From positions 62,001-126,000 of the forward strand of contig JAEPMD010000001.1 in NCBI GenBank assembly GCA_017644105.1: 64,000 nt of DNA, given 5' to 3'. Every line of letters begins with the position of its first letter. Position 1 is the first letter of the stretch. The position numbers and the translations under genes were made by a program. The DNA comes from Rhizobiaceae bacterium (GTDB lineage Bacteria; Pseudomonadota; Alphaproteobacteria; Rhizobiales; Rhizobiaceae). Positions 44,241 to 60,886 of this stretch are shown in pieces. A model generated the notes under the pieces. The model worked only from the letters and a program-made list of their open reading frames with translations. It was not told where the DNA came from and made no database searches.

Positions 44241-45455
44241 TCAAGCAAATGCTTGTAAGCCGGTTTGTGCACGACCCAAAATCAAAGCATGTACATCATG
44301 GGTGCCTTCATAGGTGTTGACTGTCTCTAAATTCACCATATGTCGGATTACAGGATATTCCATACTGATGCCATTACCACCATGCATGTCGCGGGCGTTA
44401 CGCGCAATATCGAGCGCCTTGCCGCAATTATTACGCTTGATCAAAGAGATCATTTCAGGTGCCGCTTCGCCCTCATCCATCAAGCGGCCGACGCGCAATG
44501 CAGCTTGCAATCCAAGCGTAATTTCGGTCTGCATATTGGCGAGTTTAAGCTGGAACAATTGAGTTTGCGCGATCGGTTTATCAAATTGTTTACGATCAAG
44601 ACCATATTGACGGGCAGCAAACCAACAGGCTTCCGCTGCACCCATCACACCCCAGGCAATACCGTAGCGCGCTCGGTTCAAACATCCAAATGGACCTTTT
44701 AATCCTGCAACATTTGGCAGTAATGCATCCTCACCCACTTCGACATTATCCATCACAATCTGGCCAGTAATGGATGCGCGCAAAGATAGTTTGCCGTCAA
44801 TCTTTGGTGCAGATAGGCCTTTCATGCCCTTTTCCAGCACAAAACCTTTGATCTTACCATCATGCGCATCTGACTTGGCCCAAACAATAAAGACATCCGC
44901 AATGGGTGAATTCGAAATCCACATCTTTGAACCATTGATAACATAGCCACCATCAATCTTCTTGGCTGTTGTGCGCATGCCTGCTGGATCAGACCCAGCA
45001 TCTGGTTCGGTTAAACCAAAACAACCGATCGACGTTCCGGCAGCCAATCCCGGCAAATATTTCTGACGTTGCTCATCAGTGCCATAAGCATAAATCGGAT
45101 ACATGACCAAACTCGATTGCACTGACATCATGGAGCGATATCCGCTGTCCACCCGTTCTATTTCACGCGCCACCAATCCATAGCTCACATAGCTTGAACC
45201 CAGCCCACCATAGTCCTCAGGGATCGTGATACCCAAAAGCCCCATCTCGCCCATTTCTGCAAAAATAGCAGGATCGGTATATTCTTTTTCAAATGCTTCA
45301 TTGACGCGTGGTTGAAGCTTATCCTGCGCATATTCATGTGCGCTGTCACGGATCAACCGCTCATCCAAATCAAGTTGGCTTTCCATGTGAAACGCATCAT
45401 CCCAAACAAATTTGGAAAGATCAGGGCGGCTTTTTGCTGGTAATTCACTGCTCAT
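44241..45455 (-). CDS. gcdH: Glutaryl-CoA dehydrogenase
   Basis: This 404-aa acyl-CoA dehydrogenase oxidatively decarboxylates glutaryl-CoA to crotonyl-CoA. It has the GCDH-specific region around the catalytic base Glu383 in [15 protein letters not shown] and the FAD/substrate segments [13 protein letters not shown] and KMWISN. The ATG at 45455 follows a GGAA ribosome site and gives normal length. It diverges from the enamidase gene, linking the nicotinate ring-opening route to central metabolism. A MarR-type site lies at 45496-45508 in its upstream region. Confidence 0.93.
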
Positions 45456-45495
45456 CTTAATTCCTTCAACCGATCTTAACGGCAATCTTTATTCG

Positions 45496-45508
45496 TTTGT
45501 ATGCTAAT
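45496..45508. promoter_or_regulatory. Putative MarR operator upstream of gcdH
   Basis: TTTGTATGCTAAT matches the motif TTTGYAYRCWAAY repeated before other genes of the nicotinate region. It lies about 40 bases upstream of the gcdH start. Confidence 0.55.
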
Positions 45509-45594
45509 AATTATGCCGACACGTGTAAAGTACAGATATGCGGGTTTGTGAAAATGTCGCAAGCAATTGACTAATAGAACCGCATGTATAATTA

Positions 45595-45607
45595 TTTGCA
45601 CACAAAT
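45595..45607. promoter_or_regulatory. Putative MarR operator upstream of enamidase gene
   Basis: TTTGCACACAAAT is the most symmetric copy of the motif (ATTTG and CAAAT arms) and lies 45 bases before the enamidase start. Confidence 0.5.
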
Positions 45608-45651
45608 GAATTCTATCTCGATAAAATTCATCAAGAGGTGAGGGTATATCC

Positions 45652-46812
45652 ATGAAGCTTGTTATCAAAAATATCGGCCAAATCCTGTCTGGTAAAATCG
45701 AAGATCCGATTTTTGAAGGTGATTGCCTCATCGCAATAGATGGAAAAATCACCGAATGGGGCAAGGAAAAAGATCTTGATACCGAAGGCGCGGACACGCT
45801 CGTCGATGCCCATGGCGTCACGCTAGCACCGGGATTAATCGACAGTCATATCCATCCTGTCGTCGGTGATTATACCCCGCGCCAACAGCAATTGCATTGG
45901 ATTGATTCAACCCTTCACGGCGGTGTCACAACACTCATTTCCGCAGGTGAAGTGCATATGCCCGGCCGCCCAAAAGACGTTGTTGGATTAAAAGCAATGG
46001 CAATCGCCGCACAGCGTTGGTATGAAAATTTCCGCCCGTCGGGCGTCAAAGTTCATGCCGGTGCACCAGTGATCGAACATGGCATGGAAGAGCATGACTT
46101 TAAGGAAATGGCTGATGCTGGCGTTAAGCTATTAGGTGAAGTTGGACTCGGTACGGTTAAAGACGGTAAGACCGCGCGCCAGATGGTGGAATGGGCACGT
46201 AAATATGGGATTCAAAGTACTATCCACACAGGCGGGCCCTCTATCCCAGGTTCAGGTCTTATTGATGCTGATATGGTTTTAGAAACCGGCACCGATGTCG
46301 TTGGTCACATCAATGGAGGCCATTCTGCCCTTCCTGATGATCAAATCATTTGCCTTTGCGAGAGCTGCAAAGCTGCACTTGAAATTGTGCATAATGGCAA
46401 TGAGCGCGCCGCGCTCTTAACGCTCAATACCGCGCGTGAATTGGATAAACTTGATCAGGTTATTTTAGGGACAGATGGACCGGCCGGTTCCGGCGTTCAA
46501 CCCTTGGGGATTATGCGCATGGTGGCGATGTTATCATCACTTGGTAACGTGCCAGCTGAGATCGCATTTTGTTTTGCCAATGGCAATACCGCCCGTCAAC
46601 GCGAGCTGGATGTTGGCCTGATTGAACAGGGTAAAAGTGCTGATTTTGTTCTCATGGATCAAGCGCAACACGCGCCTGGAAAGAATCTGTTGGAATCTGT
46701 TCAACTCGGCAATCTGCCCGGCGTTGGCATGACTATCATTGATGGTGTGGTGCGCAGTGAACGCAGCCGCAATACACCGCCTGCCCAGCGCTTGCCGGAG
46801 ATCATCGCTTGA
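45652..46812 (+). CDS. ena: Enamidase (6-oxo-1,4,5,6-tetrahydronicotinate amidohydrolase)
   Basis: This 386-aa amidohydrolase opens the reduced ring of 6-oxotetrahydronicotinate, releasing ammonia and 2-formylglutarate. It resembles the Eubacterium barkeri enamidase along its whole length, from IKNIGQILSG to the C-terminal SRNTPPAQR. The metal ligands are recognisable: His66 and His68 (DSHIH), Glu163 (GEVGLG), His192, His219 and Asp275 (GTDGPAGSG). It begins a two-gene unit with the CoA transferase, whose TTG start overlaps its stop codon. Confidence 0.9.
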   Translation: MKLVIKNIGQILSGKIEDPIFEGDCLIAIDGKITEWGKEKDLDTEGADTLVDAHGVTLAPGLIDSHIHPVVGDYTPRQQQLHWIDSTLHGGVTTLISAGEVHMPGRPKDVVGLKAMAIAAQRWYENFRPSGVKVHAGAPVIEHGMEEHDFKEMADAGVKLLGEVGLGTVKDGKTARQMVEWARKYGIQSTIHTGGPSIPGSGLIDADMVLETGTDVVGHINGGHSALPDDQIICLCESCKAALEIVHNGNERAALLTLNTARELDKLDQVILGTDGPAGSGVQPLGIMRMVAMLSSLGNVPAEIAFCFANGNTARQRELDVGLIEQGKSADFVLMDQAQHAPGKNLLESVQLGNLPGVGMTIIDGVVRSERSRNTPPAQRLPEIIA

Positions 46813-47918
46813 ACACGCCACTAGATGGGCTGAAAGTCGTCGAACTTGCGAGAATTCTTGCTGGTCCCTGGATTGGCCAAACGCTCGCAGATCTTGGCGC
46901 AAATGTGATAAAAATCGAGAGCGCAGCGGGCGATGACACGCGGCGTTGGGGTCCACCTTTCATTGAGCGCGATGATGATATATCCGCAGCCTATTTCCAT
47001 TGTACAAATCGCGGCAAGGACAGCATATCCGTTGATTTCAACAACGAAGAAGACTTAAACGCGCTCATTGAAATTATCAAAGACGCCGACGTATTGATTG
47101 AAAATTTCAAAGTTGGTGGTCTGGAGAAATATGGGCTCGATTTCCCATCGATCCATAAACTCAATCCACGGCTGATATATTGCTCGGTGACAGGCTTCGG
47201 CCAAGATGGCCCATATGCCCATCGTGCTGGTTATGATTTTCTCATTCAGGGCATGTCGGGTATCATGGATTTAACTGGAGATCCTGACGGCTCACCGCAA
47301 AAAATCGGTGTCGCGTTTGCTGATATTTTTTCAGGGCTTTATGGTGTGATTGGTATTCAAGCAGCACTTGCTGAGCGCGAACGCAGCGGTATCGGACAAC
47401 AAGTTGATATTTCATTGCTGGACTGCATGACCGGCGTTTTGGCCAATCAGGCGATGAATTATCTCGCATCTGGCACTTCACCCACACGCATGGGAAATGC
47501 CCACCCCAATATTGTGCCCTATCAAACGTTTGAAGTCTCCGACGGTTATATCATAATCGCCTGTGGCAATGATCGCCAGTTTCAATCACTTTGCAATGTT
47601 TTAGAGCTCAATGAAGTCGGCATAGAAGAGGCCTTTCAAACCAATTCAAGCCGCGTTGAAAATCGTGCCGATTTGGTCCCACTTATTCAAGCAGAATGCA
47701 TCAAGTGGACGAAGTTAGATCTATTACAAGCGCTGGAAGAGGCTGTGGTGCCCGCAGGCCCAATTAATAACGTTGCGGAAGCGCTTGATAACCCGCAGAT
47801 CAAGCACCGCAACATGCAGATCGCACCAGATGGCATTCCAGGTTTGAGAACGCCCATCACATTCTCAAGATCAGAACAAAACCACAGTTCTGCATCCCCC
47901 AAATTGCCGCGTAAATAG
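46809..47918 (+). CDS. Class III CoA transferase, probably glutarate-specific
   Basis: This 369-aa CaiB/BaiF-family enzyme moves CoA between carboxylic acids. The catalytic Asp143 lies in AGYDFLIQGMSG, and the N terminus LKVVELARILAGPW is typical. Family members include succinyl-CoA:glutarate CoA-transferase. With enamidase upstream and glutaryl-CoA dehydrogenase nearby, glutarate activation is the best reading. The start is TTG at 46809, overlapping the enamidase stop; no ATG lies nearby in frame. Confidence 0.85.
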   Translation: MNTPLDGLKVVELARILAGPWIGQTLADLGANVIKIESAAGDDTRRWGPPFIERDDDISAAYFHCTNRGKDSISVDFNNEEDLNALIEIIKDADVLIENFKVGGLEKYGLDFPSIHKLNPRLIYCSVTGFGQDGPYAHRAGYDFLIQGMSGIMDLTGDPDGSPQKIGVAFADIFSGLYGVIGIQAALAERERSGIGQQVDISLLDCMTGVLANQAMNYLASGTSPTRMGNAHPNIVPYQTFEVSDGYIIIACGNDRQFQSLCNVLELNEVGIEEAFQTNSSRVENRADLVPLIQAECIKWTKLDLLQALEEAVVPAGPINNVAEALDNPQIKHRNMQIAPDGIPGLRTPITFSRSEQNHSSASPKLPRK

Positions 47919-47927
47919 CGTGGACAC

Positions 47928-48365
47928 TTATGTGAGTTTTTGAAGTAGTTTGACCAAGGTCGCGCGCTCAGCCTCATTTAATGGCGACAAGGTTTCCTCA
48001 GTAATTTTCATACCAATGTCTTCGAGACCACGAACGATATTTTCGCCTTTTTCAGAAAGAAAAATCACCAACCGTCGTTTATCTTCAAGATCGGGTTTTA
48101 ACTCGACAAATCCTTTATCTTTCAAACGCTCGACCACACCTTTAACGGTCGCAACATCCATACCCGCCAAACGCCCAAGATGGTTTTGCGAAACCTTGCC
48201 TTGTTGGGAAATACGTAAAAGCGCCGAGAACTGAGTTGGGGTCAATTTCTCAATTGTATGGGACTTGAAAATTTCGGCATGCCTTTGGTGCGCGAGCCGG
48301 AGTAAATACCCGACTTGATCGTTTAGATTATATGCGCCCGCCTTACCATTTGTCGATTTCGTCAT
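47928..48365 (-). CDS. MarR-family regulator, NicR/BpsR-like
   Basis: This 145-aa winged-helix regulator has the MarR layout: an N-terminal dimer helix (DQVGYLLRLAHQRHAEIF), a recognition helix (MDVATVKGVVERL) and a wing with KRRL. NicR and BpsR, MarR regulators of nicotinate degradation in Pseudomonas and Bordetella, have a similar N terminus. It converges with the CoA transferase gene. The TTTGYAYRCWAAY sites in this region are its likely targets, the ligand being 6-hydroxynicotinate or a neighbour. Confidence 0.82.
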   Translation of the reverse strand: MTKSTNGKAGAYNLNDQVGYLLRLAHQRHAEIFKSHTIEKLTPTQFSALLRISQQGKVSQNHLGRLAGMDVATVKGVVERLKDKGFVELKPDLEDKRRLVIFLSEKGENIVRGLEDIGMKITEETLSPLNEAERATLVKLLQKLT

Positions 48366-48435
48366 AGGTAAAGCTTACAGGGAAAGATGCAACTTACACA
48401 ATACCGGATTGTTCCATTCAATCGTCGTCCACCGA

Positions 48436-49020
48436 TTAACGCAGCCCATCTTCGCCTTTTGCGTCTTCATGAGTGAGACCACCGACACGCGGCAAGGGGC
48501 GACCACTATCAGTGACCGCGACAGCTACCATCAATTCATTCGCGCGTGGCGCATCATTTAAGCGCACTTCAATCCCATCAAAATGACTGCGCACATATGC
48601 AGCATCCTTGTGACCAAGCGGCACATCTAAAACCTGACCAGGACTTCCCATTTTTTTCGATGAGGCAACAAGTGCAGCGCCTTTTTCAACGGCCTTACGC
48701 AATGGCGCTCCGAGCTTTGGATGCAGGATCGCAGCGGCATGTTCAAGCTCACCATTTTCGCCGACCATCACAGATTTCCCATAGCTTTCCGCTTCAGATG
48801 GAGAAATGCCTAGGGCTGCCACACATTTATCACCCAAGAGACCCCCAAGCTCCGCGCCCATTTCCATCAGTTCGGATAGATCTTCTTGATAAATACCCGC
48901 ATATGGATTTTCGATTACAGCTACGGCGACAGCTTTTCGTGTTGCCGGGGAAATTTCGCGACCAATTTCGCGATGGGTTTCCTCCACATTCACGGCAATT
49001 TTTCTGATCTTCATGCTCAT
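48436..49020 (-). CDS. DUF1185 family protein, paralogue B
   Basis: This 194-aa cytoplasmic protein belongs to DUF1185, labelled amino acid synthesis family without known activity. Conserved stretches are VIENPYAG, GELEHAAA, YVRSHFDG and NDAPRANE. It is the last gene of the nicotinate operon and overlaps its paralogue by four bases (ATGA). The two are clearly related, both ending KGEDGLR. A role in converting a nicotinate intermediate is inferred from the operon alone. Confidence 0.8.
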   Translation of the reverse strand: MSMKIRKIAVNVEETHREIGREISPATRKAVAVAVIENPYAGIYQEDLSELMEMGAELGGLLGDKCVAALGISPSEAESYGKSVMVGENGELEHAAAILHPKLGAPLRKAVEKGAALVASSKKMGSPGQVLDVPLGHKDAAYVRSHFDGIEVRLNDAPRANELMVAVAVTDSGRPLPRVGGLTHEDAKGEDGLR

Positions 49021-49598
49021 CGTAATCCATCCTCTCCCTTAATCTGTGAAGCTTCAAGTCCACCCGAACGCGAGTGAATACGCGCGCCTGTTGACATCAC
49101 CAAAGCCAGCGCCATTTCATTGGCCCTTGGCGCATCATTGGACCCCACTTCCATCGCATCAAAATGGCTGCGCACATAAGATGCGTTAACATGAGTAATC
49201 GGCACGTCCAAACGTGCACCCACACCACCAACTTTTTTCGTTGATGGCACAATGGCATTGGATTTCGCCAATTGATCTCGCATTGCATAGCCACCTGGCG
49301 CATGCCACAGCGCACCATGCTCTAATTCGCCAGCCTCACCGATGATCGCGCCTTTACCATAACCTTCGATCTGATCGGCACCACCAAGCAATTGAACAAG
49401 CTTTTTGGACATATCCAAGCCCATAGGCTTGAGATCCTCCATAAAGCTTTGAATGTCCTCTTCATAGCGCCCGGCAAATGGGTTCTCAATGATGGCGAGG
49501 ATGGATGCGCGCTTAACTGGGACATCCGCAACTGGTCCACCTTCGTGATAAATCTCTTCAACAGAGGTTATTAGTTTTCTTAAGATGACGTCAGGCAT
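49017..49598 (-). CDS. DUF1185 family protein, paralogue A
   Basis: This 193-aa protein has the same landmarks as its neighbour: IIENPFAG, GELEHGAL, YVRSHFDA and NDAPRANEM. The ATG at 49598 is chosen because GGATGG lies upstream and the family N terminus begins there. It overlaps the UPF0280 gene by eight bases and its paralogue by four. Tandem, coupled paralogues suggest a mixed oligomer. Confidence 0.8.
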   Translation of the reverse strand: MPDVILRKLITSVEEIYHEGGPVADVPVKRASILAIIENPFAGRYEEDIQSFMEDLKPMGLDMSKKLVQLLGGADQIEGYGKGAIIGEAGELEHGALWHAPGGYAMRDQLAKSNAIVPSTKKVGGVGARLDVPITHVNASYVRSHFDAMEVGSNDAPRANEMALALVMSTGARIHSRSGGLEASQIKGEDGLR

Positions 49599-50454
49599 AC
49601 TGAACCATCCTTTCATGTATTTTGAGATTATTCTGACCAATGATGCGATGCGCATCTTGGAAAAAGAGAGCTGCCGCTTTGATTAATCCTTGTTGCAAAA
49701 GCACCTCTGCTTTTGCTTTGCCGTTTTCAATCGCAAGATTCTGGTCTTGAGGCGATAATTCCTCACAGCCAATGACTACCAATTTAGCTCCCAGATCACT
49801 GTCAGGGCTCAGCTCAGCCGCAGGTTTTCGCATCACGAGAGGATGGTTTGGAATATCAACCGCATTGGCAATGAGTGTTGCTGCGACATCAGCCTGCGCT
49901 GCAGTCTCCGCTAAAACGGTAACGCTATCTGCAATCCCCAAACTATGGCTGCGCCCATGCCGACCGCTGGTCGCTATCCCCGAAATTCCATCCCCCGCAC
50001 GAATATCAATTCGTCCTAATTCAAAGCCTTGGTGAGATTGCACGGATGTGACGAATTTTTGCCCGTCTTCAAGATAAAGGGCGATATCACCGCCATTATT
50101 CACATAGGCTTTTTGAAACTTCGCAGCATTACGCATTGTCAATAAAATCGTATCTGCTACAGCACCGGCAACAGCTGCCATGCGCGTCACAAACTGATCC
50201 CTAGCATAAGGAAGACACGCATCATGCATAAGATTTGCGATCTCACCTTCTGGGCGTATAGTGCTTGCATTAAGTGGTGATCTCAACGTGGGCAACTCAG
50301 AAGCCAATTCTTCAAGCACAGTTTCAAACCGATCAATCGCTGCCTTAAATGCTTTGTTATGATTGCGATCTACCGAGATGATCAAATCAATCGGACCGTG
50401 TTGCAGATGAAGCCTCTTTCCGCAAGGCAATATGGTAGCCTGTGGAGTCATCAT
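49591..50454 (-). CDS. UPF0280 family (ApbE-fold) protein
   Basis: This 287-aa protein belongs to UPF0280, related in fold to ApbE FAD:protein FMN transferases. It shows AYVNNGGDIALYL and GIATSGRHGRSHSLGIADSVTVLA, which resemble ApbE nucleotide and metal sites. It overlaps 6-hydroxynicotinate reductase by four bases. It may modify or load a flavin on the reductase, or act directly on an intermediate; neither is shown. Confidence 0.8.
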   Translation of the reverse strand: MMTPQATILPCGKRLHLQHGPIDLIISVDRNHNKAFKAAIDRFETVLEELASELPTLRSPLNASTIRPEGEIANLMHDACLPYARDQFVTRMAAVAGAVADTILLTMRNAAKFQKAYVNNGGDIALYLEDGQKFVTSVQSHQGFELGRIDIRAGDGISGIATSGRHGRSHSLGIADSVTVLAETAAQADVAATLIANAVDIPNHPLVMRKPAAELSPDSDLGAKLVVIGCEELSPQDQNLAIENGKAKAEVLLQQGLIKAAALFFQDAHRIIGQNNLKIHERMVQYA

Positions 50455-51956
50455 GTTCCTGATCCACCAGCTTTAGTGTCTTCAGACCATCTATAATTAG
50501 ATGCCCGCATTGGATTATGATCATCTTGGCTGCGCGAAACTTTGCGTGTGGTTTGCGCATTGATCTCGTCAACCTGCTTGATCTCGTCCACATAGCCACC
50601 CAGAACACCATAGTCACTGGCGCGCATCGAAAATTCAATCGGGGCAACCAGCGCAGGCGTTGGCACATACCCAAAGGAATTGGTTGGCATATCCAAGACA
50701 TCCACCATCACCGTAATCCCGCCGCCTGGCCAGACATAGGCCTCTGCACCACCGCATGACACATGAGTGAGGGAATTTTTGACAGATTTTGTCAAACGCA
50801 CCGGGTTTTCTGTGACCCCTGCTCGCAGGCTTCCGCCAGCGCCACCCATAAAGAGGACGGAACAGACTGATGGTTCACAATTTTCCGCAATCAGCTCACA
50901 AGAACTTAATAGTTTGGGCGGAATGTCAGCAGGCATGGGCTTCAGATCTTGATCCAAAACAAAATAGGCGAACTGTTCTCCGGTGGTCGACACCATCAGC
51001 ATCGTCATGCCTTCGCGGGCGGTTTTTGGATTAAACGGCCCCAATATTGTCAGCGGGTCTTCAATATCCGTCCCACCCCAACCAATGCCTGGTTCGGCAA
51101 CCTGGAAATAACGACCCGGCGTTGATCGACGTCCCAGCATCTTAATGCCTGTCGGCGGAATATCGAGCTGCTTGCCGGCTTCATGCTCGGATAAAACACC
51201 GGTGATATGGTCATCAACCACCACGACTTCATCCACCTCATCAAGCCATTGTTTGGCAAACATGCCGATGGTTGCCGAGCCGCAGCCCACGCGCATCAGC
51301 TTCTCTTCAACACCGTTGATGATAGGCGCTTTTCCAGCGGCAACAACGACCGTGATCTGTTCATCATTTTCACCGATCACCAGTTCAACAGCTTCGCGAT
51401 TGCAGAGCTTTAATAATGTATCGCAGGTCACCCGACCTTCTTTTTTTGAACCACCAGTGAGATGTTCAACACCACCAAGCGACAACATTTTTGAGCCATA
51501 TTCTGACGTCATGACATGACCCACAGGTTCACCATCCACGCGAACCACATCACGCTCATGACCAATATGGCGATCGGTATCGATCTTCACTTTCACACCG
51601 CAATAAGAAAAAATCCCTTCGGTGACGACCGTCACCATATCAACGCCATCAATATCTTGGCTGACAATGAAAGGCGCAGGCTTATAATCTGGATAGGTTG
51701 TCCCAGCGCCAATCGCGGTGACAAATTGCCGATCACCTTTCACGATATCGCCGTCCCAATCTTCCTGATCCGTGCCTGACAAAAACGGCACGATTTTGTG
51801 CTCGGTTTCATGGAGTACCGTTAAAGGATCAAGGCGCACCAATTCACCGGCATGATTGGCATAGCGATCACATGCGCCAGACTTACCTTCCGCGATGTAA
51901 CACATGACGGGGCAGGCATCGCAGCGGATTTTTTCTGTCTTTACTTTATCGCTCAT
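50451..51956 (-). CDS. hnr: 6-hydroxynicotinate reductase
   Basis: This 501-aa enzyme is predicted to reduce 6-hydroxynicotinate to 6-oxo-1,4,5,6-tetrahydronicotinate. Near the N terminus, Cys12, Cys15, Cys19 and Cys29 (CDACPVMC then GACDRY) form a plausible [4Fe-4S] site, matching the iron-sulfur flavoprotein described in Eubacterium barkeri. The assignment rests on this signature and on enamidase, which acts on its product. It overlaps the nicotinate dehydrogenase gene by 11 bases. Use in an aerobe, with an unknown electron donor, is notable. Confidence 0.83.
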   Translation of the reverse strand: MSDKVKTEKIRCDACPVMCYIAEGKSGACDRYANHAGELVRLDPLTVLHETEHKIVPFLSGTDQEDWDGDIVKGDRQFVTAIGAGTTYPDYKPAPFIVSQDIDGVDMVTVVTEGIFSYCGVKVKIDTDRHIGHERDVVRVDGEPVGHVMTSEYGSKMLSLGGVEHLTGGSKKEGRVTCDTLLKLCNREAVELVIGENDEQITVVVAAGKAPIINGVEEKLMRVGCGSATIGMFAKQWLDEVDEVVVVDDHITGVLSEHEAGKQLDIPPTGIKMLGRRSTPGRYFQVAEPGIGWGGTDIEDPLTILGPFNPKTAREGMTMLMVSTTGEQFAYFVLDQDLKPMPADIPPKLLSSCELIAENCEPSVCSVLFMGGAGGSLRAGVTENPVRLTKSVKNSLTHVSCGGAEAYVWPGGGITVMVDVLDMPTNSFGYVPTPALVAPIEFSMRASDYGVLGGYVDEIKQVDEINAQTTRKVSRSQDDHNPMRASNYRWSEDTKAGGSGT

Positions 51957-54666
51957 TGTTTAATGCCTTTATCGCCATTTTCACACGCGACGGTGTCGCC
52001 GGGATTTGGGTGATCCTTGCGCCAGTTGCTGCATAAATTGCGTTTAAAATTGCTGGTGCCGTCGGAACGAGCACATGTTCTCCCAGACCTTTTGCACCAT
52101 AAGGACCATGCGCGTCTGGATCTTCAATGATCAGCGTTTCAACCGGTGGCATGTCACCAATCGTTGGGATCAGGTAATCATGTAGATTTTCAGTTCGCCC
52201 AGGGATATATTCTTCCATTAATGCCATGCCGAGCCCTTGCGCGATGCCGCCATGAACTTGCCCCTCAACCAATACCGGATTGATCGCTTTGCCCACATCA
52301 TGAGCTGCGATGAACTTGATGGGTTTAACCGTGCCTAACTCGGTGTCAACTTCCATAATCGCCATTTGCGCAGCATAACCAAACTGCGCATAAGGCGAGC
52401 CTTGTCCGTTCTCGTCAAGCGGCACAGTCGGTGGATCATAGGTTTCCTCAGCGCGAAACACATAACCCTCATCATCAGCAGTGAGTGAAATCAAATCCAG
52501 CGAATGTTCTTTACCGTTTTCACGTACACTCAGCATCGAACCTTCAAAAACAATTTCACTGTCTTCACTTACATTAAATCGATGCAAAATATTTGCCCGC
52601 AATGCTTCGCCAGATAAACGCGCTGCATTACCCGACACAAAGGTTTGACGAGAGGCTGAGGTTTTCCCCGCATCTGGCGTAACATCTGTATCCGGTCCGA
52701 CGAGTTCAATATCTGAGATCGAAACACCAAGTGCAGTGGCAAAAATCTGACTGATAACCGTATTCGCACCTTGGCCAATATCCATCGCACCTTGATGGAG
52801 CAAAATAGTGCCATCTGCCTTAATGCCCGATTTGATCGTGGATGGATTGGGCAATGATGTATTCCCGCAACCATACCAACCTGACGCGACACCAACACCT
52901 CGTTTTAGCACCTTGTTTTCAGCATTAAATTGATCACATTTTTTACGCTCTTGATCCCAGTGCGGATTTAATGCTTCTAGGCACTTCTTTATCCCAACAC
53001 CTTGCGAAAACACCTGCCCGCAAACGGTTGGTTGATCTGCTTCCAGCGCATTGATAATGCGAAACTCCAGAGCATCAAACCCTGCCTTTAGCGCAAGCTC
53101 ATCAAATAATGATTCCTGCGCAATCGCCGACTGCGGCACACCAAAACCTCGAAAGGCACCAGAAGGAGGGTTATTGGTATAAATGCCTTGAGATTTTGCT
53201 CGGTAGTTTTCAATCAAATATGGACCAGATGCATGAACGGGAACGCGATTAGCAACAGTTGGGCCCCAGCTCGCATAGGCGCCCGTGTCAAAGCGGCCAA
53301 AAAAATCAAACCCAACGATTTTGCCCTCTGAATTCGCACCGATCTTTAACGCGATATCTGACGGGTGCCGCTTGGTGGTGCTTTGCATGGATTCTGTACG
53401 TGTATAGGTCAGTCGCACAGGCTTGCCAGTTTTAATCGCAGCGAGCGCCAAAATTGGCTGCACAGATATATCGAGTTTTGAGCCAAACCCGCCGCCGACA
53501 CTTGAGGGGATAATTCTGATCTGATCTTTGCTTTTCCCAAGAATGATTTCCAAAGCTTCCTGATCCATCACAGGTGCCTGTGTGCAGGCATGAACGGTGA
53601 CTTTGCCATCAATTACTTCAGCAAAACCAGCTTCCGGTTCAATATAGGCATGTTCAACAAAGCCTGAATTAAAATGCCCTTCAACAACAAAATCCGCCTG
53701 CGCAATGCCAAAAGCCGCATCACCGCGCTGAACAAATCCTTCACACATGAGATTGTGCGCATGTTTTTCGTGTAGCTTGGCGGCAAGGTTCGATTGCGCT
53801 TTATCGATATCTTGCGCTGCATCTTCTTCACGCCAAATAATCGGAAAGTCTTCTGGGTCAAATTCGCGAATATAGTCTGGCGTGCCAATTATAGCCGCTA
53901 CCGCTTCACCACGAAAACGTGCCTCGTGAACAGCAAAAACCGGCTGGTCTTGAAATTGCGGAATCACGCCAAAGGCATTTTCACCTTCAATATCATCGGC
54001 AGTTATGATTGCTGACACCTCAGGATGACGCTCGACGAAACCAACTAAATCACCCAGCTCAAAACCCGCTCGCGGGAACGGTGATCGAATGACAAAAATT
54101 TCCAAAGTGCCGGGAGGCGCAATATCATCGCCATAAAGATCGCGGCCCGCTACTTTTTCAACGCCATCTAATCGCCGGATCGAACTCCCGATGTGGCCAA
54201 GGTCTTCGGAAAGCATCGGGGCAACATCCAACACGGCATCGATAATCTTTCGATAGCCGGTGCAACGGCATAAGACACCGCCCAAGGCATCTTTAACCTC
54301 TTCTTCCGAAGGGTTCGAATTTGCACGTAACAAGGCGACGGCAGACACGATCATCCCGGGCGTACAAATCCCGCATTGTGCTGCACCATGATTGAGAAAA
54401 TTATCCGCAAGTTTCTCAGCAATCGGATCGCCTTCGTAAAGACCACTAACCGTTTCAATCTTTTTCCCACGGATTTGGTGCGCCGGCGTCAAACATGCAC
54501 AAACCACATTACCATCAACGACAACCGAACAGGCACCACAATCACCGGCATTACAGCCAATTTTAACATCACGTGCGCCAACTCGCTCGCGCAACATTTC
54601 TGAAAGCCGCTCACCCGGAATAGGATCAGATGAAATATGATCACCGTTTAAAGTAAAATCTGTCAT
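51946..54666 (-). CDS. Nicotinate dehydrogenase, fused FeS and molybdopterin subunits
   Basis: This 906-aa member of the xanthine dehydrogenase family would hydroxylate nicotinate at C6. The N-terminal 165 residues are a CoxS-like domain with [2Fe-2S] ligands Cys38, 43, 46, 58 and Cys98, 101, 133, 135. The rest is the molybdopterin domain with GGGFGSK, AFRGFG and the catalytic Glu in GAKGLGEH near the C terminus. It lacks the AYRCSFR motif, so it is not a CO dehydrogenase. The ATG at 54666 overlaps the FAD-subunit stop. Substrate is inferred from hnr and enamidase. Confidence 0.87.
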   Translation of the reverse strand: MTDFTLNGDHISSDPIPGERLSEMLRERVGARDVKIGCNAGDCGACSVVVDGNVVCACLTPAHQIRGKKIETVSGLYEGDPIAEKLADNFLNHGAAQCGICTPGMIVSAVALLRANSNPSEEEVKDALGGVLCRCTGYRKIIDAVLDVAPMLSEDLGHIGSSIRRLDGVEKVAGRDLYGDDIAPPGTLEIFVIRSPFPRAGFELGDLVGFVERHPEVSAIITADDIEGENAFGVIPQFQDQPVFAVHEARFRGEAVAAIIGTPDYIREFDPEDFPIIWREEDAAQDIDKAQSNLAAKLHEKHAHNLMCEGFVQRGDAAFGIAQADFVVEGHFNSGFVEHAYIEPEAGFAEVIDGKVTVHACTQAPVMDQEALEIILGKSKDQIRIIPSSVGGGFGSKLDISVQPILALAAIKTGKPVRLTYTRTESMQSTTKRHPSDIALKIGANSEGKIVGFDFFGRFDTGAYASWGPTVANRVPVHASGPYLIENYRAKSQGIYTNNPPSGAFRGFGVPQSAIAQESLFDELALKAGFDALEFRIINALEADQPTVCGQVFSQGVGIKKCLEALNPHWDQERKKCDQFNAENKVLKRGVGVASGWYGCGNTSLPNPSTIKSGIKADGTILLHQGAMDIGQGANTVISQIFATALGVSISDIELVGPDTDVTPDAGKTSASRQTFVSGNAARLSGEALRANILHRFNVSEDSEIVFEGSMLSVRENGKEHSLDLISLTADDEGYVFRAEETYDPPTVPLDENGQGSPYAQFGYAAQMAIMEVDTELGTVKPIKFIAAHDVGKAINPVLVEGQVHGGIAQGLGMALMEEYIPGRTENLHDYLIPTIGDMPPVETLIIEDPDAHGPYGAKGLGEHVLVPTAPAILNAIYAATGARITQIPATPSRVKMAIKALNNER

Positions 54667-55493
54667 GAGCGCACCGCCCGCATCACAGCACGTTTGCACT
54701 GTTCTGCAACCACATTCAGACGATAATCGCCGGTGCCACGCACATCATCAATCGGCTTAAGAGGCGACAAATATTGCGGCGTGACAGCAACCTCATCAGG
54801 TGTTTTTCCGATCATATCCGCTTCAAGCGCAGGCAATCGCTGCGCCACCGGTGAACAGGCGCCAACTGCAATTTTCGCACCAGTAATGATGCCGTTATCA
54901 TCACAGGTAATATTGGCTGCTGTCATCGTGATCGAGATCACCAAATACCGTCGACTACCCAGCTTTTCAAATGCGGATTTTTCTCCCTTTGAAGGATTGG
55001 GTATCAAAACGGCTGATAAAATTTCATCCCCCGAAAGCGATGTTTTACGCACATGTAATATGAAGTCTGACAAAGCCATCACCCGCGTGCCATTAGATGC
55101 GCTGACAAGCTCCACTTGCGCATCTAGCGCCAATAGTGGCGGCACACCATCTGCTGCTGGAGAAGCATTGCAAATATTACCACCAATGGTGCCAGCATTT
55201 TGAATTTGAATGCTCCCAACTTCACGCGCGGCTTGTTTTAAAGCATCAAAGCTAGGCGGCAGATCTGCTTTGATTATGTCTGTCCAAGTAGTCGCCGCTC
55301 CAATGCGATAGATGTCATCGGTCAACGTGATGCCAGACAATTCCGGGATAGAAGTAAGGTCTATTAAGTTACGTGGCGAATGCCCTTGTTGCGAGGACGG
55401 ATAAACATCCGTTCCGCCAGCAATAATACGCGAGCCTTTAACCGCATATAATTGAAGCGCGGTTTCCAGATCTGTCGGGATTTCGTAACGCAA
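54663..55493 (-). CDS. Nicotinate dehydrogenase FAD subunit
   Basis: This 276-aa CoxM-like flavoprotein has IIAGGTDVYPS near residue 20 and NAGTIGGNICNASPAAD near residue 100, the two FAD-binding motifs of the family. It is the first gene of the minus-strand catabolic operon and overlaps the fused FeS/Mo subunit by four bases. A 34-base near-palindrome at 55500-55533 lies just upstream. Confidence 0.88.
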   Translation of the reverse strand: MRYEIPTDLETALQLYAVKGSRIIAGGTDVYPSSQQGHSPRNLIDLTSIPELSGITLTDDIYRIGAATTWTDIIKADLPPSFDALKQAAREVGSIQIQNAGTIGGNICNASPAADGVPPLLALDAQVELVSASNGTRVMALSDFILHVRKTSLSGDEILSAVLIPNPSKGEKSAFEKLGSRRYLVISITMTAANITCDDNGIITGAKIAVGACSPVAQRLPALEADMIGKTPDEVAVTPQYLSPLKPIDDVRGTGDYRLNVVAEQCKRAVMRAVRS

Positions 55494-55499
55494 ACCTCA

Positions 55500-55533
55500 C
55501 CTCTTTATCATTTGTATACTAACGATAAAGAGG
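55500..55533. promoter_or_regulatory. Long near-palindrome containing a MarR-type motif
   Basis: The arms CCTCTTTATC (55500-55509) and GATAAAGAGG (55524-55533) are perfect inverted repeats. Between them TTTGTATACTAAC (55511-55523) is centred on GTATAC, so the whole is symmetric apart from two mismatched pairs. It begins seven bases upstream of the first operon start codon, a position suited to repression. Confidence 0.65.
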
Positions 55534-55594
55534 CGAACTTATTTTGTCAAACTGAAATGCTTTTCGAAGTAAATCAGAACAATCAAACGAATAG

Positions 55595-56200
55595 CTAGAG
55601 CAGCGATACGCCCGCTTGTGACATGCCTTCACGCGCCGCATCTAATGAACCATCAAAATCAATGGCACGGCATAAGGATTGATCAACGGTTACATCAAAA
55701 CCTTGTTTCGCACCGTCCACAGCAGAATAATTGACGCAAAAATCAGTTGCCAAACCAACCAATAATAATTTTTCAACGCCGCGACTTTTTAGGTAGCCAT
55801 CAAGCCCCGTCGGTGTCGTGTGGTCATTTTCAAAAAATGCAGAATAGCTGTCGATTTCTGGGCGAAAGCCTTTGCGAACAATCATATGGGCAGCATCAAC
55901 ATTAAGGTCCGCATGAAATTCAGCACCTTGGCTACCTTGCACACAATGGTCAGGCCAAAGAACTTGCGGGCCATAGGGCATATCAATCAACGACATAATT
56001 TCCGCACCCTCATGGGATGATGCAAAAGATGAATGTCCGGCTGGATGCCAATCTTGCGTGAGGACAATTGTTTGAAATTCAGACATGAGTGCATTCACAC
56101 CGGACACGAACTGATCACCTTCATTGACGGCCAACGCGCCGCCGGGGCAGAAATCGTTTTGAATATCAATTACAATCAGGGCTTCGTTTGCAGCTCGCAT
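55595..56200 (-). CDS. pncA: Nicotinamidase
   Basis: This 201-aa isochorismatase-fold hydrolase converts nicotinamide to nicotinate and ammonia. The catalytic triad is Asp12 (VIDIQNDF), Lys110 (VRKGF) and Cys155 (ATDFCVNYS), and the metal site is Asp50, His52 and His85. The ATG at 56200 is supported by AAAGGA at 56211-56216; earlier in-frame starts lie in the inverted repeat upstream. Next to nicotinate catabolism it widens the substrate range to nicotinamide, besides any role in NAD salvage. Confidence 0.93.
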   Translation of the reverse strand: MRAANEALIVIDIQNDFCPGGALAVNEGDQFVSGVNALMSEFQTIVLTQDWHPAGHSSFASSHEGAEIMSLIDMPYGPQVLWPDHCVQGSQGAEFHADLNVDAAHMIVRKGFRPEIDSYSAFFENDHTTPTGLDGYLKSRGVEKLLLVGLATDFCVNYSAVDGAKQGFDVTVDQSLCRAIDFDGSLDAAREGMSQAGVSLL

Positions 56201-56216
56201 TTTGGGATGTCCTTTC

Positions 56217-56237
56217 ATTGTCCATTGCGTGGACAAT
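56217..56237. promoter_or_regulatory. Perfect inverted repeat upstream of pncA
   Basis: ATTGTCCA (56217-56224) and TGGACAAT (56230-56237) are perfect 8-bp arms around TTGCG. The site lies 17 bases before the pncA start, so it could be an operator or leader hairpin. A half site AATTGTCCAG occurs at about 60950, before the Liv-type operon. Confidence 0.5.
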
Positions 56238-56278: not shown

Positions 56279-56974
56279 TCAAACGCCTAAATAGCGTTTA
56301 ATTTTATCCGGTGATGCGCCCAGCTCTTTTGCGGTGAGGGTTTCAACCGATTTGCCATTTTCAATCATCGTCACACGGTCCGCCAGCGCCAAGACCGCAT
56401 CAATGCGCTGTTCAACCAAAACAATGGCAAAACCTTCATCTTTCATCTTCAAAATGACCTGTCGGATTTGCTCGATCATTGAAGGCTGCAGACCTTCCGT
56501 TGGTTCATCAAGCAGAAGTACCTTAGGCCGCAAGGCGAGTGCGCGGGCCGTTGCCAACATCTGTTGCTCACCACCTGATAATGTCCCTGCACGTTGATCA
56601 AGCCGCTCGCGAAGTCGCGGGAACAAATCCAAGACCCAGTCTCTGGTATCGTTACTCACTTTCCGCACCATCAAGCCCATCTCGATATTTTCAGACACGG
56701 TTAGTTCAGGAAACAATCGGCGCCCTTGTGGGATATAACCAATGCCGCGCCTTGGGATTTCATGCCCTGGCAAAGTGTTGATAGCTTCACCTTCCAATGA
56801 GATCACACCATCCTCGATTTGTACAATCCCCATGATCGATCTTAAAAGTGTGGTTTTGCCCGCACCGTTACGACCCATCACGCATAAAATCTCGCCCGCC
56901 GCCACATCAAGTGACACTCCGTGCAACACCTGAACCTGGCCATAACCAGCATATATGTCTTTCACCTCAAGCAT
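56279..56974 (-). CDS. Liv-type ABC importer ATPase 2 (LivF)
   Basis: This 231-aa ATPase has Walker A GRNGAGKT (34-41), signature LSGGEQQMLATARAL and Walker B VLLLDEPTEGL, as in LivF/UrtE. The ATG at 56974 is selected because the family start MLEVKDIYAGYG begins there. It overlaps the LivG-type gene by eight bases and ends the operon. Confidence 0.9.
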   Translation of the reverse strand: MLEVKDIYAGYGQVQVLHGVSLDVAAGEILCVMGRNGAGKTTLLRSIMGIVQIEDGVISLEGEAINTLPGHEIPRRGIGYIPQGRRLFPELTVSENIEMGLMVRKVSNDTRDWVLDLFPRLRERLDQRAGTLSGGEQQMLATARALALRPKVLLLDEPTEGLQPSMIEQIRQVILKMKDEGFAIVLVEQRIDAVLALADRVTMIENGKSVETLTAKELGASPDKIKRYLGV

Positions 56975-57698
56975 CTTCAGACGTACCCAGATATGCGCTT
57001 TGGACAGATTTGTTTTCGCGGATTTCAACTGGCGTTCCTTCCGCCAGCAATTCACCAAAATTAAGCACTGCAATATGGTCCGCGGATTTCATCACCACAT
57101 CCATATTATGCTCAATCAGTAATATCGTCGTATCACCAGCAAGCGATTTGATCAGCGCAATAAATTCTTCAACTTCAGACTCAGACAACCCCTGTGTCGG
57201 TTCATCCAAGATGAATAACTTAGGATCTTGGGCCAGACCCATGGCAATTTCCAAAATGCGCTGATGCCCATAACTTAAATCTTTCGCAACCTGATCCGCG
57301 CGATCGGACAGATTGACCTGTGCGAGAACTTTTTGAACCGTAGCACCAATATCTTTGGTTTTTAACTTTTGAGCACGTCTTAATGACAATTCAACATTGC
57401 GGGCAACACTGAGGCCGGGAAAGATCGAGGTGATCTGAAACGTGTAAGCGATGCCAAGGCGAATGCGTTGATGTGCCGGCAATGCGCTGATATCCTGACC
57501 ATTAAAAAATACCCGGCCAGAAGTTGCAGGAATACGACCGCACAACATGCCCACAAAAGTGGTTTTACCTGCACCATTGGGACCGATCAATGCAGTGATC
57601 AAACCCTCTTGCAGCTTAAAATCGATATCGGTATTGGCCTGCAAACCTCCAAAGGATTTACTCAACCCTTGAGTTTCTAAAATCGTTACGGAAGCCAA
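56967..57698 (-). CDS. Liv-type ABC importer ATPase 1 (LivG)
   Basis: This 243-aa ATPase has Walker A GPNGAGKT (39-46), a YGHQRILEIAMGL signature variant and Walker B LFILDEPTQGLS. It resembles LivG, and the GHQR in place of the common GxQR keeps the key Gln-Arg. It overlaps the upstream permease by 13 bases. Confidence 0.9.
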   Translation of the reverse strand: MASVTILETQGLSKSFGGLQANTDIDFKLQEGLITALIGPNGAGKTTFVGMLCGRIPATSGRVFFNGQDISALPAHQRIRLGIAYTFQITSIFPGLSVARNVELSLRRAQKLKTKDIGATVQKVLAQVNLSDRADQVAKDLSYGHQRILEIAMGLAQDPKLFILDEPTQGLSESEVEEFIALIKSLAGDTTILLIEHNMDVVMKSADHIAVLNFGELLAEGTPVEIRENKSVQSAYLGTSEDA

Positions 57699-58630
57699 GG
57701 CAAATACCTCCGTCGTAATTCACCCGCCAAACCCTGAGGCGCAAAGAGAGTTAAGAGCACCAATGCTAAACCTGCAATTAACATGTAAGCGGGTGTGATC
57801 GCACTGGAATAATCAATCAGATAGAACATGAAGATCGTGCCAATCAACGGCCCAATTGTCACGCCTGCACCACCTAGCAAAACCCATAACAATGGAAAAA
57901 TCGAATATTGCACGGTGGCAAATGTTGCGCCGGCATAACCAAAGAGCAACGCATAGGCCGCGCCAGCTGATCCAGACATTACGCCCGATATCACAACCGC
58001 CTGAAGTTTTAAGCGCATGACATCATAGCCAAGCATGGTCGCGCGTTCTTCGTTTTCGCGAATGGCCACAAGTGCCAATCCAAAACCTGATCGAACGATA
58101 TATGCGACGATGAAAAAACAAATCGCAAATAATAAAAGCGCGGTGAAGAAACGTCCCATCGGGCTGGTCAGATCAATCATGCCAACCATGCGATCTGCCT
58201 GTTGGATGACAAAGCCTTCATCGCCGCGGGTATATTCACCAAAATAAAGGATGGTTAGATAGCCAGCTTGCGCGAACATTAGCGTGACAATCATAAAAGC
58301 CACACCCGTTGTGCGCAGCGCCAGGAAACCCACGCAGATTGAAACCACCAAGGCCAGGATCAATCCAGCGATCACAGCAGCAATGGGATTAAAATCGAAA
58401 AATTGCATGGCAAGGCCAAGCCCATACATCCCGGCGGCAAAGAACAAGGCATGGCCCAAACTTAATAGGCCTGTATAGCCAAAGAGCAGATTATAGCCCA
58501 TGGCGTAAACCGCCAATACGAGAATTCGTGCAAGATTTCCGGAGTGATATTCCGGCAAAATGAAAAATGAACAGGCGAGCGCGATGACAACACCAATATG
58601 CAGCCAATTCGAACGCTGGATATCCGTCAT
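57686..58630 (-). CDS. Liv-type ABC importer permease 2 (LivM)
   Basis: This 314-aa inner-membrane permease of the LivM family has about ten hydrophobic segments and the stretches YNLLFGYTGLLSLGHALFF and VAIRENEERATMLGYD. It overlaps the LivH-type gene by four bases and the ATPase gene by 13. Confidence 0.9.
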   Translation of the reverse strand: MTDIQRSNWLHIGVVIALACSFFILPEYHSGNLARILVLAVYAMGYNLLFGYTGLLSLGHALFFAAGMYGLGLAMQFFDFNPIAAVIAGLILALVVSICVGFLALRTTGVAFMIVTLMFAQAGYLTILYFGEYTRGDEGFVIQQADRMVGMIDLTSPMGRFFTALLLFAICFFIVAYIVRSGFGLALVAIRENEERATMLGYDVMRLKLQAVVISGVMSGSAGAAYALLFGYAGATFATVQYSIFPLLWVLLGGAGVTIGPLIGTIFMFYLIDYSSAITPAYMLIAGLALVLLTLFAPQGLAGELRRRYLPWLP

Positions 58631-59553
58631 GAGCGCAATTTCCCCATTAAACCTTGGGGTCTAAAGACCAGAACCATGGCCACCAATAATGTCGCTAAAA
58701 TTTTGGCGAGTGTCGGAGAGAAGAAGACCGAAATGATCCCATCGCTCATGCCAATCAATACGGCGGCAATCACTGTGCCTGGCAAACTTCCCAAACCGCC
58801 AATAATGACAACGATGAAGGATAAGAGTAAAGGATCATGCCCCATCAAATAATGCGCTTGTTGGACAGGAACCACTAAAACCGCACCCATGGCCGCAAGG
58901 CCAGCACCAAGACCAAATACCCAAGCATAAACACGTTTGACCGGTACGCCAAAGGCACGTGCCATTTCGCTATCTTGTTGGGTAGCGCGCATGATCAAAC
59001 CAATTTTGGTTTTGGTCATCAACACCCACAAAGCTGTTAAAATGGCAATCGCAGCGACGATGATGAAAAGCTTATAACTGGTGATGGATAGACCCCAAGG
59101 CCAATAAATTTCAAAACCATTGTCACCAAACTCAAACCACGGGATCGCCAATCGTTGATTAAACGGCGCTTCCACCGGACGCGCTTCCGGACCAAAGGTC
59201 ATAAGTGTGACTTGCTGAATGATATATAAAAGCCCGATCGTGCCCACGATAGTGCGGTCAGGATCGTAATCAATGCGCTGCAGTACAAGCCGATCCGAAA
59301 TGGCCGCAATAAAACCAACGAGTAGCGGCGCAAAAATAAGCGCAGCGATAAAACCGATCGCCGGATGACCGCCCAATAAATGCGCCACCCACCAGGCAAT
59401 CACCGCCCCTAACATAAAAAATTCACCATGCGCGACATTCACGACGCGCATGATGCCGAAAACAATGCTTAGGCCCATCGCTGTCATTGCTAGAACTGCG
59501 GCAATAACAGCACCCTCAAGGGAGGCAAGAATAAGATGCGGCCCAAATTCCAT
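58627..59553 (-). CDS. Liv-type ABC importer permease 1 (LivH)
   Basis: This 308-aa LivH-family permease contains GIMRVVNVAHGEFFMLGAV near its N terminus and RATQQDSEMARAFGV in the coupling loop. It follows the binding-protein gene after 34 bases. Confidence 0.9.
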   Translation of the reverse strand: MEFGPHLILASLEGAVIAAVLAMTAMGLSIVFGIMRVVNVAHGEFFMLGAVIAWWVAHLLGGHPAIGFIAALIFAPLLVGFIAAISDRLVLQRIDYDPDRTIVGTIGLLYIIQQVTLMTFGPEARPVEAPFNQRLAIPWFEFGDNGFEIYWPWGLSITSYKLFIIVAAIAILTALWVLMTKTKIGLIMRATQQDSEMARAFGVPVKRVYAWVFGLGAGLAAMGAVLVVPVQQAHYLMGHDPLLLSFIVVIIGGLGSLPGTVIAAVLIGMSDGIISVFFSPTLAKILATLLVAMVLVFRPQGLMGKLRS

Positions 59554-59587
59554 ATTGTTTTCTCAGTCTAAATTCCAAACTTTGTGA

Positions 59588-60886
59588 TTAGAACGGCTGT
59601 GTTGTGTAATCCACTTCGTCTTCATACAACGTGTCTTCAATTGATGTTGTATGCGACACCACAAGTTTGCCATCTGTCACTTTTGAAATGTACTGCGATC
59701 CAAATGTTTGGTGTGTTTTACCATTAAAGCGTTTTGCGCCCTGCGGATGATCATCCGACATTGGCATATCCGACATGGCTTCCACTGCCTCAATCAACTT
59801 GGCACGATCTTCAGGACCTTTATAGCCTGCAGATTCCATACCCGCTTTAACGATATTAAGCGTTTCCCAACAACCAAACATATGCGCAAATGTGGAGACG
59901 TCTTTTGAATCTGATGTCGAAGCACCATTTTCATCAACACCCACAGCTTCGCGATAAAGCTTGTCATGAGATGTTTGATTGGCTTGCGCATAACGCGGCA
60001 TGCCTTCCCAGAAATATGTACCCTCCAAGAATTCAAGGCCTGGGCTGTTGATGTCTACTGCTTCAAGACTATCAATAAAGCCGAAGATTTCTGGGCGGCT
60101 TGGTCCGAAGAATTCACCCAATTCTTTCACGAAAGTCAAAACAGCAGGTCCGACCATCACGTGATAGACAACTTCTGTATCACGTGGGATTTTCGGGAAG
60201 TATTTCGTAAATGATGTTTCAGCTGGCGGTACGGCGATTTTCGCAACGACCTGACCACCCTGACGCTCAATCGCTTCACTAAAAAAATCGCGATGATCAT
60301 GACCGAACGCAAAGTCTGGATAGATCATAGTAACTTTTTTACCCAGATTGTCGCCAACAAATGGCGCCATGGCTTGTACCTGACTTTTCACATCTGTGAT
60401 GCCTGGCTGAAGCGTATATCTGTTGAGCTTACCACTGGCGACATGGTGTCCTTCAGACACAACAAAATACGGAAGCTTCAATTCACCAGCACGTGGGGCT
60501 GATCCGAAAACAACGTGACTGAACAATGTACCAAATGCGATATCGCAATTATGCTGTGACGCAAATTTCTCGACCACTTCGGCGCCGCGCTTTGGATCTG
60601 TGCCATCGTCTTCGGCAACGATTTCAACCGGACGTCCATTGATGCCGCCCATATCGTTGATACGTTTAACAGCAGCTTGCGTGGTGCGATCATACCAACG
60701 GCCATAAGCTGCACCAATACCGGTTCTATGAACCTGAAAACCGATCTTGATCGGCTCTGATGTTTGCGCTTGCGCATATCCCATCATCTTTGGCATTCCC
60801 GTCGTTGCCAAAAGTGCACCTGCGCCAATTCCCTTAAGTGTGTTGCGGCGGGAGACCAGCTTTGGTCCCTTCTTCTTATCAGTCAT
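59588..60886 (-). CDS. Liv-type periplasmic binding protein with Tat signal, possible nicotinate binder
   Basis: This 432-aa binding protein of the Peripla_BP_6 (LivK/UrtA) family begins with a twin-arginine signal (SRRNTLKGIGAGAL) and is probably exported folded. The mature domain starts near IKIGFQVHRTGIGAAYGRW. It is the first gene of the Liv-type operon. A MarR-type site at 60936-60948 lies about 50 bases upstream and the operon follows pncA. Import of nicotinate, 6-hydroxynicotinate or a related N-heterocycle is therefore inferred; the binding pocket cannot be read from sequence. Confidence 0.85.
   Translation of the reverse strand: MTDKKKGPKLVSRRNTLKGIGAGALLATTGMPKMMGYAQAQTSEPIKIGFQVHRTGIGAAYGRWYDRTTQAAVKRINDMGGINGRPVEIVAEDDGTDPKRGAEVVEKFASQHNCDIAFGTLFSHVVFGSAPRAGELKLPYFVVSEGHHVASGKLNRYTLQPGITDVKSQVQAMAPFVGDNLGKKVTMIYPDFAFGHDHRDFFSEAIERQGGQVVAKIAVPPAETSFTKYFPKIPRDTEVVYHVMVGPAVLTFVKELGEFFGPSRPEIFGFIDSLEAVDINSPGLEFLEGTYFWEGMPRYAQANQTSHDKLYREAVGVDENGASTSDSKDVSTFAHMFGCWETLNIVKAGMESAGYKGPEDRAKLIEAVEAMSDMPMSDDHPQGAKRFNGKTHQTFGSQYISKVTDGKLVVSHTTSIEDTLYEDEVDYTTQPF

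Follow-up and report, generated by a model that had tools for sequence, protein, structure and literature searches.

The stretch of DNA analysed here (the window, 64,000 nt, in which no RNA families or tRNAs were found) carries a nicotinate cluster, the core of which is an unbroken chain of overlapping genes on the minus strand. In reading order, these specify the FAD subunit of nicotinate dehydrogenase (54663..55493; FAD_binding_5 and CO_deh_flav_C by Pfam), its fused 2Fe-2S and molybdopterin subunit (51946..54666), which adjoins hnr in most relatives, the 6-hydroxynicotinate reductase Hnr (50451..51956; 501 aa), a UPF0280 (COG2122) protein of ApbE fold (49591..50454), and two proteins of the DUF1185 family (PF06684), namely DUF1185-B (49017..49598), of the clade found directly 3' of UPF0280, and DUF1185-A (48436..49020), of the clade that tracks enamidase. 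Hnr was recognized from alignments and from homologues annotated as '6-hydroxynicotinate reductase' (58–79% identity), and UPF0280 from NF003322, its predicted structure and fold matches, and its co-occurrence with Hnr. The start of DUF1185-B was taken at 49598, as in homologues, the ORF list having a longer version with an ATG at 49655. Successive genes overlap by 4, 11, 4, 8 and 4 bases, exactly as described in the initial annotation of this DNA, and the families named there were also confirmed (PF06684, NF003322). The overlap of hnr with UPF0280 is 4 bases in 41 of 69 named relatives, that of UPF0280 with DUF1185-B is 8 bases in 36 of 45, and that of DUF1185-B with DUF1185-A is 4 bases in 38 of 42. 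The overlaps are thus shared by most related loci and not peculiar to one genome.

On the plus strand lie the gene for an amidohydrolase (45652..46812; Amidohydro_1), the enamidase that opens the tetrahydro-6-oxonicotinate ring and whose orthologues adjoin hnr loci, and, overlapping it by 4 bases, a class III CoA-transferase gene (46809..47918), the nearest model being succinate--glutarate CoA-transferase, matched below its cut-off. The minus strand specifies an acyl-CoA dehydrogenase (44241..45485), a family-level match that from the pathway is probably glutaryl-CoA dehydrogenase, and a MarR-type regulator (47928..48365) that is also present in most related loci. At the upstream end of the cluster is a PncA-type nicotinamidase (55595..56236, minus strand; above the NF008623 cut-off), and beyond it are ORFs for a branched-chain-amino-acid-type ABC transporter consisting of two ATPases, two permeases and a binding protein (56279..60886, minus strand). 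A transporter of this type is also found beside hnr in relatives, and is probably the uptake system of the nicotinate pathway. Molybdenum nicotinate dehydrogenase, Hnr and enamidase are encoded together, as in the THON route of E. barkeri and Azorhizobium, and the gene set fits the aerobic tetrahydro-oxonicotinate route of Azorhizobium.

The cluster (44241-56236) is nearer to those of roseobacters (Hnr 74–79%, DUF1185-A up to 88%) than to those of genomes from its own GTDB family (Hnr about 68%), a likeness which suggests that it may have been gained horizontally. A hypothetical membrane-like protein of 460–490 aa, encoded at 60995-62452 of the window and also at L171:3234-4643 and L226:4737-6200, is specified beside hnr clusters in 12 of 59 loci; its L171 homologue had no match in Pfam. 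Of 59 full loci, 23 have close to hnr a gene for ferredoxin-NADP reductase, a likely electron donor for Hnr (e.g., L171:15109-15918, L225:11021-11848 and L226:3831-4667), and none was found within the window.

The association of UPF0280 with Hnr is very strict. In 289 alphaproteobacterial genomes, both occur in the same 44, and UPF0280 exceeded its cut-off in none of the other 245. In 43 of the 44, it directly follows hnr in the same orientation, the remaining case being at a contig end. A set of 388 Pseudomonadota genomes, sharing four of the Hnr/UPF0280 genomes with the first set, gave the same picture: the 32 genomes with Hnr were the same 32 with UPF0280 over the cut-off, which it exceeded in none of the rest. 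The 44 Hnr genomes represent 28 families, and the 19 genomes with enamidase represent 13. Eight genomes were picked in which UPF0280 was displaced from hnr or not found next to it, the locus was cut by a contig end, or DUF1185 was missing or had moved, and all eight were found to encode UPF0280. At three loci (L070, L078 and L083) it lies away from hnr and is retained in the genome, so that the pairing outlasts the loss of linkage, indicative of a functional need. The search tables also list one in-frame stop in each of two matched stretches, that of Hnr at L027 and that of UPF0280 at L113.

UPF0280 scores above the NCBIfam NF003322 cut-off (354.7 against 290 bits), and its AlphaFold model has a pLDDT of 95.4. 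The closest VIA matches were 2O34 (Z 20.1), Treponema Ftp (16.6) and FmnB with FAD (15.7), the next unrelated fold being at 7.6. Matches to the ApbE, Ftp and FmnB flavin transferases lie at Z of about 14–17 (16 for ApbE/Ftp), with a Foldseek E-value of 1e-6 to FmnB, so that the ApbE-like character proposed in the initial annotation is well founded. The Pfam model PF02424 gave 15.3 bits, which is below its gathering score of 25.6. In a profile alignment, the GGDI, ATSG and SVTVLA...AD..AT blocks of UPF0280 align with those of the ApbE encoded by the same genome. The catalytic triad of ApbE is Ser241-His257-Asp285 (PMC12052999), and by block, spacing and profile alignment the Ser and Asp correspond to S163 and D189 of UPF0280, each present in 51 of 51 sequences; N119-N120 and G122-D123 are also invariant. 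The general-base His, which falls in a gap of this alignment, is not conserved, position 170 being L in 20, H in 19 and F in nine of the 51. UPF0280 is, therefore, not a canonical ApbE.

The presumed partner is less easily characterized. Alignment of Hnr sequences shows nine invariant Cys and, at residues 83–92, an invariant G-[AS]-x-T-T-Y-P-D-Y-K segment. Hnr matches no Pfam family, a profile search for a solved relative found none, and the predicted model is poor (pLDDT 71), with no Foldseek match below 0.001 and a best VIA Z of 5.5 over 67 residues; for these reasons no statement is made on its fold. The G-[AS]-x-T-T segment falls within a low-confidence region of the model. The Hnr of E. 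barkeri was reportedly described by Alhapel et al. in 2006 as having covalently bound flavin. The canonical acceptor motif of ApbE, D-x-x-[ST]-G-A-[ST], was considered as the flavin site of Hnr and rejected, as none of the 80 Hnr sequences contains it, nor does any of the operon proteins.

An ApbE-like protein so tightly bound to Hnr in 44 of 44 and 32 of 32 genomes is best read as supplying or attaching flavin to the reductase, an activity that the initial annotation had suggested for it. UPF0280 is probably a dedicated, altered flavin-loading factor that equips Hnr with its flavin. Two other roles have to be weighed against this one. Instead of maturing Hnr, UPF0280 could be a subunit of the reductase or its partner in electron transfer; the strict pairing, the adjacency and the conserved 4-base overlap would suit a subunit equally well. 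Such a role is unlikely, given that the gene can leave the side of hnr and still be kept, that the protein has the fold of a cofactor-transfer enzyme and an invariant catalytic Ser and Asp, and that the E. barkeri reductase is said to have been purified as a single-subunit enzyme. It could also deliver sulfur or aid Fe-S assembly, as proposed for COG2122 and DUF39 in methanogens and Desulfovibrio, where homocysteine synthesis needs COG2122 together with DUF39 and a NIL/ferredoxin protein (PMC5764234), and the nine invariant Cys of Hnr are what would be expected of an Fe-S enzyme. Yet the ApbE fold indicates flavin or nucleotide chemistry, and Cys is conserved at no position in the 51 UPF0280 sequences, for which reason a persulfide carrier was rejected and a role in sulfur delivery or Fe-S assembly appears improbable.

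The two DUF1185 proteins are clear members of PF06684 (E-values 5e-70 and 8e-70; 235.1 and 234.3 bits against a cut-off of 27). In a tree of 80 DUF1185 sequences, A, B and the trigonelline-type proteins form separate clades, of which A and B are old; both lie outside the 19-row TGN clade (100/99) and so are not TgnF orthologues. A cluster of charged residues (Lys82, Glu93, His94, Arg108, Glu162, Arg174 and Arg178 in DUF1185-A numbering) is present in 80 of 80 sequences, including those of TgnF type. DUF1185-B follows UPF0280, even where an hnr genome has no enamidase. DUF1185-A occurs in 19 of 19 genomes with an enamidase orthologue and in two of the 270 others (p 8e-28 over the 289 genomes, a value that overstates their independence since most are related). 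The evidence of G082, G197, G001, G080 and G195 led to the rejection of the possibility that DUF1185-A tracks Hnr, enamidase or HyuAB being preferred as its partner. In G082, enamidase and DUF1185-A are encoded on different contigs and there is no hnr; in G197, hnr, enamidase and DUF1185-A are far apart on one chromosome; and in G080 and G195, DUF1185-A is found without an enamidase orthologue, and HyuAB is beside hnr in both. G082 is near-complete (L127 and C8:32012-33166) and also lacks UPF0280, so it may have either another route to the enamide or have lost the first steps.

By Pfam, HyuA and HyuB are hydantoinase/oxoprolinase A and B. Among 59 full-length hnr loci, 35 include enamidase, eight include HyuAB, and none has both. 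HyuA was found within about 10 kb at 13 of 20 hnr loci of genomes without an enamidase orthologue, several times in the same gene string, and DUF1185-B and -A adjoin HyuAB. It is likely that the ATP-dependent HyuAB takes the place of enamidase as ring opener, which would account for working hnr genomes that have no enamidase. Enamidase-less hnr loci with HyuA or HyuB are seen often (L056, L060, L068, L072, L080, L224-L226, L227, L230-L232, L234-L236, L239 and L242-L246).

Outside hnr loci, DUF1185 has a recurring type of neighbour. At L125, L133, L148 and L165 (A. vitis), it directly adjoins an enamidase homologue (40–42% identity), and these loci have no hnr. The trigonelline-type clade adjoins an alpha/beta hydrolase, usually together with a flavin reductase, a luciferase-type oxygenase and an aldehyde dehydrogenase, an arrangement seen in Sinorhizobium, Klebsiella, Leisingera, Agrobacterium, Acinetobacter and several further loci. 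When the neighbours of DUF1185 away from hnr are pooled, alpha/beta hydrolase and luciferase-like oxygenase are the commonest families. The trigonelline hydrolase should pass via 2-formylsuccinate to succinate semialdehyde and CO2. The product of enamidase is the analogous 2-formylglutarate (PMC9304392, PMC7356986). Since two unrelated hydrolases give products of one kind and both have DUF1185 as a neighbour, 2-formyl dicarboxylates are the likely substrate, and DUF1185 proteins probably process them by decarboxylation, tautomerisation or deamination. The earlier idea that they handle 2-formylglutarate gains support from this, but not the statement that DUF1185 has no assigned activity, as leads exist in the literature. 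TgnF of the trigonelline pathway, a homologue of HcdD, is reported to assist the oxidation of succinate semialdehyde (PMC7913881), and for HcdD itself, a DUF1185 protein of 7-hydroxycoumarin breakdown, attempts to detect stimulation failed (PMC7913881). A role for DUF1185 as semialdehyde oxidase was rejected, since its fold is hexameric and chorismate-mutase-like (PMC2954203) and a conventional SSADH is encoded elsewhere in the same genome, so that DUF1185 is not required as an oxidase. The remaining DUF1185 clades have different neighbours, and the scope of the family may be wider than the handling of 2-formyl dicarboxylates.

The fold and the HyuAB neighbourhoods also bear on whether DUF1185 could be an enamine or imine deaminase, similar to RidA, acting on an aminomethylene dicarboxylate, rather than a formyl decarboxylase or tautomerase. 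A hexameric, chorismate-mutase-like protein would suit such a function, and an ATP-dependent lactam opener such as HyuAB, beside which the DUF1185 genes occur, would leave an enamine. Enamidase, though, itself liberates ammonia (PMC9304392), and every enamidase genome nevertheless carries DUF1185-A, so this is a possible but somewhat doubtful role. The initial annotation had treated UPF0280 and both DUF1185 proteins as one set with stoichiometric, pathway-specific roles, an idea prompted by the conserved overlaps in an unbroken chain. That idea was not supported. DUF1185-A, -B or both are absent from many hnr genomes, five of the 44 (two of them near complete) having no DUF1185 at all; 17 of 56 DUF1185 genomes have no hnr; and a single copy is the rule in the 16 named genomes checked. 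Missing and single copies make a fixed stoichiometric set unlikely, and a complex of all three proteins is very improbable, while the five genomes indicate that DUF1185 is helpful but not essential. Likewise, the expectation that these genes would keep to hnr and enamidase held for UPF0280, which stays with hnr, and failed for DUF1185, which often occurs without hnr and yet often adjoins enamide hydrolases. That the three genes are passengers of an often-transferred cluster, with no direct role, can be given hardly any credence: the cluster is carried on plasmids, but UPF0280 keeps to Hnr and DUF1185-A to enamidase even when unlinked. UPF0280 and the two DUF1185 genes are not one unit and serve two different steps.

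From the observed gene content, overlaps, co-occurrence, neighbourhoods, ApbE fold and retained active-site residues, we infer all catalytic roles in the following scheme, in which UPF0280 is a maturation factor of Hnr and DUF1185 acts on the ring-opening product, two successive steps; as a whole, we would give it an even chance of being correct. The route would run from nicotinate to 6-hydroxynicotinate, tetrahydro-6-oxonicotinate, 2-formylglutarate, glutarate semialdehyde, glutarate and glutaryl-CoA. UPF0280, in a maturation step dedicated to Hnr, would most likely take FAD and load flavin onto the reductase, as suggested by the ApbE fold and the motifs of Mg and nucleotide type. The flavin may be held covalently at a site different from that used by ApbE, a candidate being the invariant Thr86/Thr87 of the G-[AS]-x-T-T-Y-P-D-Y-K segment. 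The cyclic enamide would then be cut by enamidase, by HyuAB or, in the case of trigonelline, by the alpha/beta hydrolase, to give a 2-formyl or aminomethylene dicarboxylate. DUF1185, acting by decarboxylation, tautomerisation or hydrolysis of the enamine, would accelerate conversion of this product into free semialdehyde, after which an ordinary aldehyde dehydrogenase could act.

The scheme provides specific, testable roles for two large families currently labelled 'UPF0280' and 'amino acid synthesis'. It would account for the way in which Hnr acquires flavin, and for a possible need of a helper when Hnr is produced in another host, and would bear on the function of COG2122 in the homocysteine synthesis of methanogens and Desulfovibrio. 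DUF1185 would supply a step that the aerobic route has so far lacked, from ring opening to glutarate semialdehyde, and link this route to the breakdown of trigonelline. It could further be speculated that UPF0280/COG2122 represents a second kind of flavin-loading enzyme, with the fold of ApbE, another base and acceptor, and dedication in each organism to a single iron-sulfur enzyme (Hnr in this case, DUF39 in methanogens and Desulfovibrio), and that DUF1185 is a general enzyme for 2-formyl or aminomethylene dicarboxylates common to unrelated pathways of pyridine-ring breakdown. Both parts together make this a tentative proposition, and one that we would not expect to hold in full.

Several known systems are related to the genes described here. 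Clusters of the Azorhizobium route have previously been seen to contain two proteins of unknown function (PMC3511419). For the nicotinate clusters of Azorhizobium, Bradyrhizobium and strain SG-6C, the available parts of the published accounts propose no roles for these proteins and do not show the split between partners. UPF0280 shares with ApbE, Ftp and FmnB (PF02424) the fold, the GGD, ATSG and AD..AT blocks and the Ser and Asp, but differs from ApbE in that a short loop replaces the HxxDxxTG stretch, the His is not conserved and the partner has no flavinylation motif. DVU1097 (PDB 2O34), which with MA1715 belongs to COG2122/DUF375, is of the same UPF0280 family (E-value 6e-12 with profile A2, besides the Z of 20.1). 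The COG2122/DUF375 protein of homocysteine synthesis, like UPF0280, has an iron-sulfur protein as its partner (PMC5764234), though this is DUF39 with NIL/ferredoxin rather than Hnr, and the subfamily found here is NF003322.

Two DUF1185 structures are available for comparison, BB2672 (3BYQ) and SPO0826 (2QTP), the latter matched by DUF1185-A over its full length (349 bits). The 'amino acid synthesis' label of PF06684 derives partly from the branched-chain transporter genes beside SPO0826 (PMC2954203). As DUF1185-A is close to SPO0826, and the same type of transporter adjoins the nicotinate cluster in the window, this label probably arose from a misreading. TgnF and HcdD belong to the same Pfam family as DUF1185-A and -B, and genes of TgnF type adjoin a hydrolase expected to yield a semialdehyde; the TgnF system differs in belonging to a separate clade, in the fold of its hydrolase, and in leading to a four-carbon rather than a five-carbon product.
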